This document shows, one piece after another, positions 29,955 to 34,463 of a stretch of 64,000 nucleotides of DNA (positions within the stretch are counted from its first letter, which is position 1; each line of letters opens with the position of its first letter). Source of the stretch: Halopiger goleimassiliensis. Its GTDB lineage: Archaea > Halobacteriota > Halobacteria > Halobacteriales > Natrialbaceae. Location of the stretch: assembly GCF_000455345.1 (NCBI RefSeq), contig NZ_HG315690.1:186001-250000 (forward strand), written 5' to 3'. The notes beneath the pieces are model-generated. The model saw nothing but the letters and a program-made list of their open reading frames with translations, had not been told where the DNA came from and did not search any database. The translations under genes were made by a program, and so were the position numbers.

Positions 29955-30752
29955 TCAGGCCTCGAGCGCGAGTCCGGCTTCTTTCAGTGCGGCTTCGGCG
30001 TCGAGATCGTCGTGGACGACGGCGGAGACGGCGGTCGCGATGGCCTCCGGATCTTCGTGCTGGAAGATCGATCGGCCCATCGAAACGCCCGCGCCGCCGG
30101 CGTCCATGACGCCGCGAACCATCTCGATCGTCTCCCGGTCAGTCCCCTTCGAACCGCCGGCGATGACGACCGGCAACCGCGTGGACTCGACGACGTGTCG
30201 GAAGCTCCCGGCATTGCCGCTGTAGCCCGTCTTGACGAGGTCGGCTCCGAGTTCCTCGGCGAGGCGAACGGCGTGACCCAGTGCCTCGGGGTCCTCGGGA
30301 TCGACGCCCGGCCCGCGGGCGTATGCCATCGCGAGCACGGGAATGCCGAGCCGTTTCGCATCCGCCGTGACCTCAGAGAGCTGAGTGATCTGGTCCGGTT
30401 CGTGATCCGAGCCGACGTTGATGTGGAACGAGACGGCGTCGGCCCCGACCCGAACCGCTTCCTCGACGGTCCCGGTCATCCGCTTGTCGTTCTCGTCGGG
30501 ACCGATCGTCGTCGAACCGTTGAGGTGGACGATGTAGCCCTTGCCGTTCTTGTTGTCGTGGACGCGCGGAGCGATCCCCTTCTGCGTGAGGACGGCGTCT
30601 GCGCCGCCACGGGTGACGCCGTCGATCGTCGATTCGATGTCCTTCAGCCCCTGAACGGCACCCATCGTGATACCGTGATCCATCGGGACGATGACGTAGT
30701 TCCCGTCCGTTCCGATCCGCTGAAGCCGTGCGTCGAGTCCTGTGGTAGTCAT
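29955..30752 (-). CDS. 2-amino-3,7-dideoxy-D-threo-hept-6-ulosonate (ADH) synthase
   Basis: First enzyme of the archaeal route to 3-dehydroquinate, an aldolase-type transaldolase that makes ADH from a 6-deoxy-5-ketofructose phosphate and aspartate semialdehyde. The 265 residues contain VIVPMDHGITMGAVQGL, DAVLTQKGIAPRV, VSFHINVGSD, DLVKTGYSGNAGSF (Schiff-base lysine) and VVIAGGSKGTDRET. It lies 24 bp after trpA on the same strand, so aromatic precursor supply and tryptophan synthesis appear to share one transcript from the trpC promoter. Confidence 0.94.
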   Translation of the reverse strand: MTTTGLDARLQRIGTDGNYVIVPMDHGITMGAVQGLKDIESTIDGVTRGGADAVLTQKGIAPRVHDNKNGKGYIVHLNGSTTIGPDENDKRMTGTVEEAVRVGADAVSFHINVGSDHEPDQITQLSEVTADAKRLGIPVLAMAYARGPGVDPEDPEALGHAVRLAEELGADLVKTGYSGNAGSFRHVVESTRLPVVIAGGSKGTDRETIEMVRGVMDAGGAGVSMGRSIFQHEDPEAIATAVSAVVHDDLDAEAALKEAGLALEA

Positions 30753-30776: not shown

Positions 30777-31736
30777 TTATGGGTGTTCTGGTTCCGGTAC
30801 GTCTCCGTCGTCGGCTCCGCGTCGGGCACCGCGTTTGAGTTCCGCGGCCTTCGTCTCGAGACGCTCGACAGCCTCGTCGGTGTCGTCGCTCGAAGCGATG
30901 TTCTGCGACTCCGTCGCAGTGCCCGCTGAGCTATGCTCAGCGATGATGTCCACGAGCGCGCTGCCGACGATGACGCCGTCAGCGCCGGCTTCCACGATCT
31001 CGGCGGCGTGATCGCCCTCGCTGACGCCGAAGCCGACGGCCTTCGGTACGTCGTACGCCGAGAGACGCTCTAGGCTCTCGTGGGTTGCCGTCGAGACGTC
31101 GGCCCGAGCGCCGGTCGTCCCGAGGCGGGCCTGCACGTAGGCGAAGCCCGAGACTTGGGACATGATCCGATCCAGCCGCTCGCCCTCGGTCGTCGGCGCG
31201 ACGATGAACACTAGGTCGAGGCCGTGATCGTCGCAGGCCTCCCGCAGGGGGTCGGCCTCCTCGGCGGGCAGGTCCGGGACGATGATCCCGGAGAGGCCGG
31301 CTTCGGCGGCCCGCTCGACGAACGGCCTCACGTCCGGCTTGCGCTGCGGCGAAGCCACGTCGCTATCCGAGGCGCGTGGTGCCTCGCGTCCCCCGTACTG
31401 GAGGATCATGTTGTAGTACGTCATCACCAGCAGCGGGGCTTCGGTCTCGAGGTCGTCGACGAGTTCGAAGAACCCCTGGGGGGTCGTGCCGGCCTCGAGC
31501 GCGCGGTTGATCGCCGCCTGGATCGTCGGTCCCTCGGCGATCGGCTCCGAGAACGGCAGGCCGAGTTCGATCAGGTCCGAGCCGCCCCGATCGAGGGCCT
31601 CGACGTACGCCTTGGTGTCCTCGAGGGTGGGATCGCCCGCGGTGATGTAGGTGATGAGCGCGGGGTGGTTCTCGCGGATGGCGGCCTCGACGTCGCTGTC
31701 GTACTCGCCGTCTTCCGACCGTCCGTCGTCACTCAC
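30777..31736 (-). CDS. trpA: Tryptophan synthase alpha chain
   Basis: Cleaves indole-3-glycerol phosphate to indole and glyceraldehyde-3-phosphate. The 319-residue TIM barrel has [47 protein letters not shown]-like [28 protein letters not shown] and [12 protein letters not shown]. The catalytic Glu is in IELG. The second catalytic acid, Asp in most bacteria (PFSDP), is Glu here (PFSEP), and the C-terminus has an extra acidic tail. Overlaps trpB by 8 bp. Confidence 0.96.
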
Positions 31737-32997
31737 CGTCGAACACCTCCACGTCGGGCGCGGCCTCGAGGTCGCGCTTCTCTGTTTCCTCCAGCACCGT
31801 CTCGAGGTCCTTGTCGCCGCGGCCGGAGACGTTGACGATCACGAGGTCGCCCAACTCGTCCGTCTGCTCCTCAAGGTACCCGAGTGCGTGACTCGATTCC
31901 AGCGCCGGGATGATCCCCTCGAGGTTCGAGAGGCGGTGAAAGCCGTCGAGCGCGGCTTCGTCGTCGACGTTGACGGGCGTCACGCGTCCCGTCTCGACGA
32001 GGTGGGACAGTTCGGGACCGACGCCGGCGTAGTCTAACCCCGCGCTGACGCTGTGGGACTCGACGATCTGGCCGTCGTCGCTCTGGAGGAGCTTCGTCAT
32101 CGCGCCGTGGAGCACGCCGTCGGTGCCCGTCGAGAGCGTCGCCGAGTTGGGTGCGACGCCCGCATCGGTGTCGATCTCGAGGCTCGAGCCGCCGGCTTCG
32201 ACGGCGTACAGGTCGACGTTCTCGTCGGGGACGAACGCGTGGAACGCCCCCATCGTGTTCGAGCCGCCGCCGGCACAGGCGACGACGCTGTCGGGAAGCC
32301 GACCCGCTTTCTCCCGGATCTGTTCGCGGGCCTCCTCGCCGATGACCGACTGGAAGTCCCGGACGAGTTTCGGGAACGGGTGGGGACCGACCACGCTACC
32401 GATGACGTAGTGGGTCCGCTCGACGGTCGTCGCCCAGTCGCGCATCGTCTCGTTGATCGCTTCCTTCAGCGTGCCGGAGCCGGCGGTCACCGGGTTCACC
32501 TCGGCTCCGTTCATCCGCATCCGGTAGACGTTCGGCCGCTGGCGGTTGATGTCCGTCCGGCCCATGTAGATCTCGCAGGGCACGTCGAGGTGGGCCGCCG
32601 CCATCGCCGTCGCCGTCCCGTGCTGGCCGGCACCGGTCTCGGCGATCACCCGCTCCTTGCCCATGTACTTCGCGAGCAGCACCTGCCCGAGCGCGTTGTT
32701 CAGCTTGTGCGCGCCGCCGTGGACCAGATCCTCGCGCTTGAGGTAGATTTCGCGGTCGTATCGCTCGCTCAGGCGGTCGGCGCGCTGCAGCGGCGTCGGT
32801 CGGCCGCCGAAATCGCGCATGCGCTCGCGGAACTCGTCCATGAAGCCGTCCTCGTTCTCGAGGACGTACCGCTCGTAGGCGTCCTCGAGTTCTTGCAGCG
32901 CCGGCATCAGGGCCTCGGGGACGTACTGGCCGCCGTACTCGCCGAACGTCCCGTCGGCGTCGCGTCGCGTCTCTCGGTCGTGATCGCCCGTGCTCAT
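31729..32997 (-). CDS. trpB: Tryptophan synthase beta chain
   Basis: PLP enzyme condensing indole with serine to give tryptophan. The 422 residues include [40 protein letters not shown] (Schiff-base Lys in GGAHK), [17 protein letters not shown] and [20 protein letters not shown]. This is the TrpB1 form that partners TrpA. It overlaps trpA by 8 bp and follows trpC by 42 bp. Part of its coding sequence (32736-32757) is repeated exactly upstream of trpC (33921-33942). Confidence 0.97.
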
Positions 32998-33039
32998 GCT
33001 GTCGTGGCCTCGCTGATCTGTGGTTGTGTCCTCGTCACG

Positions 33040-33819
33040 TTACTCGCCTCCGTTCGCGCCCGTCAGTCGGCGCGTGTTCGCCGCGACGTCGGTCTCGCCT
33101 TCGCCGTGGTCCATGATCGCGCTCCCGATCAACAGCGCGTCCGCGCCCGCCTCGCGCATTCGCCGAACGTCGGCCGGGTCGGACACGCCGCTCTCGGCGA
33201 TCAGCGTGACGTCGTCCGGAACTGCAGGGGCCACGGACTCGAAGGTTTCGAGGTCGACCTCGAGTCGCGCCAGGTCGCGGTTGTTGACGCCGACGATCTC
33301 CGCGCCCGCCTCGAGGGCCGTCTCGAGTTCCGCGCGGTCGTGAACCTCGACGAGCGGCTGAAACCCGCGCTCGCGGGCCGCGTCCACGAGGGCTGCGAGG
33401 TCGTCGACGAAGCGGGCGATCAGCAGGACGAGATCCGCTTCGACGACGTCCAGTTGGTCCTCTCGGAGGACGAAGTCCTTCCGGAGAACGGGAACGTCGA
33501 CCGCCTCGCGGACGCGGGTCAGCGCCTCGGGCGAACCGCCGAAGTGAGTCGGCTCCGTCAGCACCGAAATCGCGGCCGCACCGCCCTCGACCATCGCCTC
33601 CGCCAACGCGACGGGGTCGTCGTCGCGGGTCCCCTCGGCGGTGGGACTCGTCGGTTTCACTTCGGCGATGACGGGGTCACGCCCCGCGGCCTCGGCGCGC
33701 TCGAGCGCGTCGGGCAACGATCGCGCGTCGGCGGCAACGCGCTCCGGACCGCCCGATCGCTCCCGCGCGGCCTCGAGGATCGACGCCACCGCGGGCGCGA
33801 GCTCCGTTTCGGAGTTCAT
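33040..33819 (-). CDS. trpC: Indole-3-glycerol-phosphate synthase
   Basis: Cyclises the carboxyphenylamino-deoxyribulose phosphate intermediate to indole-3-glycerol phosphate. The 259-residue TIM barrel carries [16 protein letters not shown] (catalytic Lys), [51 protein letters not shown] and [15 protein letters not shown]. First gene of trpC-trpB-trpA-ADH synthase. ATG 33819 follows the TATA (33847-33852) by about 28 bp, so the transcript should be leaderless. The other trp genes (D, E, F, G) are not in the window. Confidence 0.96.
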
Positions 33820-33822
33820 TAT

Positions 33823-33852
33823 TGTACATCGACGTACTCATATGTACAAATA
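33823..33852 (-). promoter_or_regulatory. trpC promoter with two TGTACA palindromes
   Basis: On the minus strand the trpC TATA (TATTTG, 33852-33847) is overlapped by one TGTACA (33843-33848). A second TGTACA (33823-33828) covers the expected start of transcription; the two are exactly 20 bp apart, on the same DNA face. TGTACA is the TRP-box core bound by the tryptophan-sensing repressor TrpY of Methanothermobacter. A similar repressor in this organism is inferred. A CGTAC at 33833-33837 may be a third, degenerate site. Confidence 0.6.
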
Positions 33853-33920
33853 CCTTGCGCCATCGGGACGTCCCGGGCTGGAGCGCCGGTGTCGAAGGGA
33901 ACGGACGGCCCGACGCTCGT

Positions 33921-33942
33921 GCTTGAGGTAGATTTCGCGGTC
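33921..33942 (-). repeat. 22-bp exact copy of a trpB coding segment
   Basis: These 22 bases upstream of trpC are identical to 32736-32757 inside trpB, same orientation. On the minus strand both encode DREIYLK (the trpB strand just before the PLP lysine loop). The copy here continues L-K-H-E-R-R-A before diverging, and belongs to no intact gene. It may be a remnant of a duplicated trpB or of another PLP enzyme. Confidence 0.6.
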
Positions 33943-33992: not shown

Positions 33993-34463
33993 ATGGAAGA
34001 CGTCACGGACGCCGGTATCTACGCCCGGGAGTCGACGTACCTCGACCGCCACGTCCAGCTCGGCGTCGCGAGCGGGCGCGTGCTGAGCGTGTCGTTTCCC
34101 GACGTGCCGGACGACGACGCCGAGTCGGCGCATTCGATTCTCGACCGGATCTTCGAGTACCTCGACGGGATCGATCCCGTCACGTTCGACGACGTCCAGG
34201 TCGCGCTGACCGTGCCGACCGACCAGCGGGCCGTCCTCGAGCAGGTCCGGGAGATTCCCTACGGCGACCAGGTCGACGTGGAGACGCTGGCCCGGATGAC
34301 CCCGGACCTCGACCACGAGGACGAGGACGACCGCATCACGGTCCGGACGGCGTTAGACGAGAACCCCGCACCCCTCCTGATTCCCGACCATCGCGTCCGC
34401 GACGGCCCGAGCGCCGCCCCGCCGGCCGTCGAGCAGAAACTCCGCTCGCTCGAGGAACTGTAG
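33993..34463 (+). CDS. MGMT-like (alkyltransferase-like) protein without the active-site cysteine
   Basis: Protein of 156 residues with the O6-alkylguanine-DNA alkyltransferase DNA-binding fold: VREIPYGDQVDVETLARM (helix-turn-helix) and PLLIPDHRVRDG where active enzymes have PCHRV. The acceptor cysteine is Asp132, so it cannot accept an alkyl group. Alkyltransferase-like proteins, which flag alkylated guanine for excision repair, usually have Trp or Ala there. It may bind damaged DNA similarly. TATA-like GATTATTC at about 33958-33965 gives a leaderless start. Divergent from trpC. Confidence 0.87.
   Translation: MEDVTDAGIYARESTYLDRHVQLGVASGRVLSVSFPDVPDDDAESAHSILDRIFEYLDGIDPVTFDDVQVALTVPTDQRAVLEQVREIPYGDQVDVETLARMTPDLDHEDEDDRITVRTALDENPAPLLIPDHRVRDGPSAAPPAVEQKLRSLEEL

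Follow-up and report, generated by a model that had tools for sequence, protein, structure and literature searches.

The tryptophan genes and their promoter

The window, the whole 64,000-nucleotide stretch of Halopiger goleimassiliensis DNA that was analysed, carries on its minus strand an operon that begins with trpC and runs through trpB and trpA to a gene for ADH synthase (Table 1). ADH synthase performs the first step of archaeal aromatic synthesis, and its gene has a counterpart in H. salinarum, OE1472F (PMC4162585). The divergent neighbour of trpC (33993-34463) encodes a protein with a 6-O-methylguanine DNA methyltransferase DNA-binding domain. An exact 22-bp direct repeat, GCTTGAGGTAGATTTCGCGGTC, is found inside trpB (32736-32757) and in the intergenic region between trpC and the methyltransferase gene (33921-33942); repeats of at least 15 bp between the trpB and trpC-upstream regions were absent from the other 80 loci.

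The trpC gene starts with an ATG at position 33819, and on the trpC strand the promoter reads CGCAAGGTATTTGTACATATGAGTACGTCGATGTACAATA-ATG. Two TGTACA hexamers lie just 5′ of the gene. TGTACA is the TRP-box consensus bound by TrpY in Methanothermobacter. A preliminary description of this DNA had noted two such hexamers at a 20-bp distance, covering the TATA element and the start site, and both are present there; the middle box AGTACG and the conservation of the promoter were missing from that account. With first bases at -29, -19 and -9, the three boxes follow one another at a 10-bp step, which places them on one face of the helix. Three bases separate the end of box 3 from the ATG, and the near-leaderless trpC transcript should start at box 3, as judged from the position of the TATA element. 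The bases ATGAAC, which would provide the tentative fourth box, open the gene in 57 of 81 trpC genes.

Table 1. Genes and promoter elements of the trpC operon in the window
Feature	Position	Strand	Remarks
trpC, indole-3-glycerol phosphate synthase; heads the operon	33040..33819	-	Haloarchaeal TrpC equivalog NF041303, 430.6 bits; PF00218
trpB, tryptophan synthase beta	31729..32997	-	TIGR00263, 598.9 bits
trpA, tryptophan synthase alpha	30777..31736	-	TIGR00262, 238.6 bits
ADH synthase (2-amino-3,7-dideoxy-D-threo-hept-6-ulosonate synthase); last of the run	29955..30752	-	TIGR01949, 356.6 bits
Box 1, TGTACA	33843..33848	-	-29 to -24, counted from the A of the start codon; shares bases with the 3′ end of TATA; columns kept in 81 haloarchaeal promoters
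Box 2, AGTACG (weaker)	33833..33838	-	-19 to -14; 10 bp to either neighbour; C-15 invariant in 81/81, G-18 in 80/81
Box 3, TGTACA	33823..33828	-	-9 to -4, where transcription is predicted to start; G-8 and C-5 invariant in 81/81
Tentative fourth box, TGAACT	33813..33818	-	Would overlap the start codon (A-TGAAC-T), in 10-bp register with boxes 1-3
TATA element, TATTTG (CTTATG or CTTTTG in relatives)	33847..33852	-	Putative role, from position and archaeal promoter rules
BRE-like element, CGCAAG	33854..33859	-	5′ of TATA; A-37 and A-36 invariant in 81/81; putative role

The hexamer is over-represented in the window, where it occurs eight times; dinucleotide shuffles predict 1.8 copies, and the highest count in 100 shuffles was five. 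The whole 3.9-Mb genome has 288 copies of TGTACA, so that at any one exact spacing some 0.02 pairs would be expected. Only one pair of TGTACA hexamers in the genome has a gap of 10-20 bases, the pair at the trpC promoter.

Conservation and spacing of the boxes

Eighty trpC loci from named haloarchaea, together with that of the window, provided 81 promoters for comparison. The array is found directly 5′ of trpC in all 81, although these do not amount to 81 independent tests since haloarchaeal species are related. In addition to C-15, G-8, C-5, A-37 and A-36, G-28 is invariant in 81/81. Despite the relatedness of the species, conservation is absent from the 81 promoters upstream of about -45.

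An array score was calculated from three hexamers at a fixed step, with steps of 7-13 compared and dinucleotide shuffles as the control. The 10-bp step ranks highest in 81/81 trpC promoters, and 80 of the 81 arrays exceed the shuffles at p<0.01. Within 1.0 Mb of sequence around 80 trpC genes, 10-bp arrays that score at least 16 are found at trpC promoters only, and at this score there are no arrays with steps of 8, 9, 11 or 12 bp at trpC. In the same 1.0 Mb, 123 of 205 TGTACA copies lie within the 60 bp 5′ of trpC.

A related array at the trpD promoter

The gene trpD is on another contig (C2:31941-32915), where it is the first gene of a second operon, trpDFEG. The preliminary description proposed a search for TGTACA pairs 5′ of other trp genes, and the motif does recur at the trpD promoter, CTTAAGTTCATGTACTGATTTGTGCATTGTAAGACTACTACGTACATTGGTG. 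The boxes there are at relative positions 0, 10 and 30 and are variants of the hexamer, TGTACT, TGTGCA and CGTACA. The trpC promoter reads GTACTCATATGTACA on its reverse strand and the trpD promoter reads GTACTGATTTGTGCA, and they have in common the two-box unit GTACKNATWTGTNCA.

This unit has exactly two matches in the 3.9-Mb genome, the trpC and trpD promoters. Across 22 haloarchaeal genomes it has 18 matches, and 17 of these are at trpC or trpD promoters as placed by coordinates; a reversed control pattern gives two matches in the same genomes. Since the unit was derived from the trpC and trpD promoters, its retrieval of them is expected, and the result lies in its near-absence elsewhere. 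The sole match in the 22 genomes away from trpC and trpD is at G007:C21:48229-48243. The trpD arrays are weaker as a group, with p<0.05 against shuffles in 28 of 29 and p<0.01 in just 13. When the whole genome was searched with the three-box pattern and up to three mismatches allowed, no further convincing site was found; there were five other three-mismatch matches, compared with four for the control, a count that excludes the trpC site, which matched on both strands. A lone TGTACA is present at L083:1331-1336, 5′ of an ACT-domain gene that resembles formyltetrahydrofolate deformylase.

A TrpY-family protein

The trp operons of a haloarchaeon are known to respond to the supply of aromatic amino acids. 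Both trpCBA-OE1472F and trpD1FE1G1 of H. salinarum are induced when these amino acids are missing, with a 12.5-fold rise for OE1472F (PMC4162585). In M. thermautotrophicus, the TRP boxes in the trpY-trpE interval are bound by TrpY, which represses trp with tryptophan; TkTrpY of T. kodakarensis (TK1227) neither binds nor controls trp, and the haloarchaeal TrpY homologues form a separate branch that was left without a function in a 2019 study (PMC6737238). The example of TkTrpY indicates that homology alone is no proof of function. A literature search that combined TrpY with TGTACA returned no match, and bench data on haloarchaeal TrpY were not found in the literature. To our knowledge, few archaeal amino acid regulons have a known site.

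The preliminary description had left the presence of a TrpY-like protein as a conditional, and the genome does encode a TrpY-family protein (G000:C1:2899953-2900453, minus strand). The gene was located with a family-like probe sequence, and its identity was then settled by the NCBIfam model NF053754, which it matches at 241.9 bits (cut-off, 180), with residues 2-164 on profile positions 1-163. Fourteen named control genomes gave matches to NF053754 in Haloferax volcanii, Methanosarcina acetivorans and Lactococcus lactis; two of the matches exceed the cut-off, presumably those of the archaea. A C-terminal ACT domain is recognized by PF01842 (28.8 bits against 27, residues 97-159). No helix-turn-helix Pfam domain is matched by the TrpY homologue, and assignment of the DNA-binding part therefore rests on the family model; the VDRRVVD region is kept in other Halobacteriota. 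A sequence search of the PDB with the homologue gave no relative with a solved structure. An ACT-domain candidate at C1:1800669 (L087), 5′ of a homoserine dehydrogenase-like gene, was rejected, its ACT domain being N-terminal and its sequence giving no TrpY match.

The TrpY homologue starts with MFDEIM; it has no tryptophan anywhere, and its residue 2 is F, the residue that haloarchaeal TrpY has there in place of W. W2 is retained in nearly all non-haloarchaeal members of the family that were read. The products of the trp genes (window 30777-33819) are also tryptophan-poor, with counts of zero in TrpC, zero in TrpA and one in TrpB. In haloarchaea trpY is not linked to trp; here it is at 2.90 Mb of contig C1, with trpC at 0.22 Mb and trpD on C2. 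Its own promoter has no TGTACA, and the array detected there is weak (score 12.5, p=0.028).

The family is present in 30/30 haloarchaeal genomes checked and in 117/119 Halobacteriota. Four haloarchaeal loci with altered trpC operators (L043, L045, L046 and L060) belong to the genomes with the four lowest TrpY scores among the 30, and residue 44 of TrpY is D in these four genomes (L336-L339) and N or Y in the remaining 26. This may reflect co-evolution of operator and protein, possibly as a single event, since the four genomes may constitute one clade. Over the 30 genomes, operator strength and TrpY family score are not significantly correlated (Spearman 0.17, p=0.38).

Arrays outside the haloarchaea

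Non-haloarchaeal Halobacteriota, grouped here in families f6 to f23, are probably for the most part methanogens, as judged from their phylum. Arrays are present at trp promoters in a number of these families, and this supports the earlier suggestion that one motif is common to methanogens and halophiles. Arrays at trpC in eight f7 and four f13 genomes have p<=0.02 in 11 of 12. The twelfth promoter (L241) gives p=0.115 with three boxes; in locus L214, where four boxes are scored, the same promoter gives p below 1/300. One f13 promoter, TATACATCAAAGTATAACTTTGTACATG, agrees with the haloarchaeal layout in every box. In families f6, f10, f15, f17, f21 and f23, four-box arrays are found 5′ of trpE (p<=0.03), and in L226 five boxes stand in a row 5′ of trpE, TGTATATTGA-TGTACATATC-TGTATGGTAA-TGTATAAATA-TGTACAAAAC.

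In other lineages no array was found. Two f14 genomes that lack a TrpY gene have no array at their trpE promoters, and three f9 genomes, with a TrpY of a distant branch, have none. Only two f12 genomes (L177 and L259) have the Methanothermobacter arrangement, with trpY divergent from trpC-trpD, and there is no TGTACA array in them. The TrpY proteins of f9 and f12 group in a long branch of their own. In f8, f19, f20 and f22 the stretch searched, which may not include the promoter, contained no array. These presence/absence contrasts, which involve few lineages, fit TrpY as the binding protein. In the f14 genomes without TrpY (L257 and L258) another motif, ATATATGTCAAAA followed by TAAATAT, is found 5′ of trpE; perhaps it is the site of another regulator.

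Proposed operator and alternative explanations

The array is almost certainly an operator of the trp operons. The alternative that the conserved block is no more than a strong core promoter with its start-codon context, in which TGTACA occurs by chance, draws on the BRE- and TATA-like elements inside the block and on the A+T-richness of promoters. It is very improbable, as chance does not account for the lack of other 10-bp arrays in 1 Mb, for a two-box unit almost exclusive to trp promoters or for the lack of signal at any step but 10 bp. A role in activation, or a dual one, with the bound protein raising trp transcription, has a precedent in Tar (TK0271) of Thermococcus kodakarensis, which activates the trp and aro operons (PMC6737238). 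The boxes here overlap the TATA element and the start, however, which is the geometry of a repressor, and activator sites are usually upstream of the BRE; activation is thus an improbable function for the array.

The main rival explanation is that the trp operator binds a regulator other than TrpY, the most plausible candidate being an Lrp/AsnC protein like LrpA2 (trh1). Lrp proteins are able to occupy several phased sites. LrpA2 (OE2776F) of H. salinarum goes up 14.9-fold when aromatic amino acids are missing, and it has been proposed as a regulator of the pathway (PMC4162585). Against LrpA2 as the binding protein, the arrays track the main TrpY branch in a few contrasting lineages, and the hexamer is identical to the Methanothermobacter TRP box bound by TrpY. 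Binding by LrpA2 or a similar regulator is therefore considered unlikely, albeit less so than activation. We know of no target site for LrpA2.

The array is probably the operator of a tryptophan-responsive repressor, and that repressor is most likely TrpY. The identity of the box, the presence of the family and the contrasts between lineages together make TrpY the likely binder, and it is likely that TrpY controls trp in this organism. Sequence comparison establishes the layout of the array, its conservation, its restriction to the two trp operons and the occurrence of a TrpY-family gene; we infer TrpY as the binding protein, tryptophan as its co-ligand, repression as the sign of control and a cooperative, side-by-side mode of binding. 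The proposed repressor would consist of an N-terminal DNA-binding part and a C-terminal ACT domain that serves as the amino acid sensor. Its putative sites, three TRP-box hexamers one helical turn apart, extend from the TATA element to the predicted start of the near-leaderless trpCBA-ADH synthase transcript. When tryptophan is plentiful, TrpY units would sit next to each other on the phased boxes, along one face of the helix, and block TBP/TFB and RNA polymerase, and trpDFEG would be controlled by the related array.

It is plausible, on balance, that a phased TRP-box switch is older than the split between haloarchaea and their methanogen relatives. TrpY would form a row with one unit per helical turn, on three boxes in halophiles and up to five in the relatives, and the haloarchaeal branch would have kept its role despite the loss of trp linkage and of W2. 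The analysis yields an exactly located operator, a regulon of two operons and a candidate regulator, in genera amenable to genetics such as Haloferax. As the operator layout is common to other Halobacteriota, both the role and the age of a TrpY switch are directly testable.

Comparison with known systems

TkTrpY is a TrpY-family homologue, as is the protein described here, and it has been shown not to bind or control trp (PMC6737238). Tar resembles the proposed system in that it controls trp and aro genes in an archaeon, but it is an activator, and both the protein and the site are different. The haloarchaeal Lrp-type proteins (trh1/LrpA2) are likewise amino acid-linked regulators, and LrpA2 responds to the lack of aromatic amino acids (PMC4162585).

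The closest comparison is with the TrpY/TRP-box system of Methanothermobacter, from which several features differ. The trp genes are in two operons here, as opposed to the single trpEGCFBAD of M. thermautotrophicus. The trpY gene is unlinked, whereas in Methanothermobacter it adjoins the trp operon and is divergent from it, an arrangement that is typical and not essential. Residue 2 of TrpY, also not essential, is F here and W, the only tryptophan, in the Methanothermobacter protein. Unlike its Methanothermobacter counterpart, the trpY promoter here has no clear box array. The putative binding boxes here are in a strict 10-bp register on a near-leaderless promoter, a further difference from Methanothermobacter. 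The unlinked gene, F2 and the lack of clear autoregulation leave the family definition untouched, but because of them the regulatory system is best called TrpY-like for now. What it has in common with that of Methanothermobacter is the TGTACA consensus, the placement of several boxes over a trp promoter, a TrpY-family protein and a trp operon as the target.
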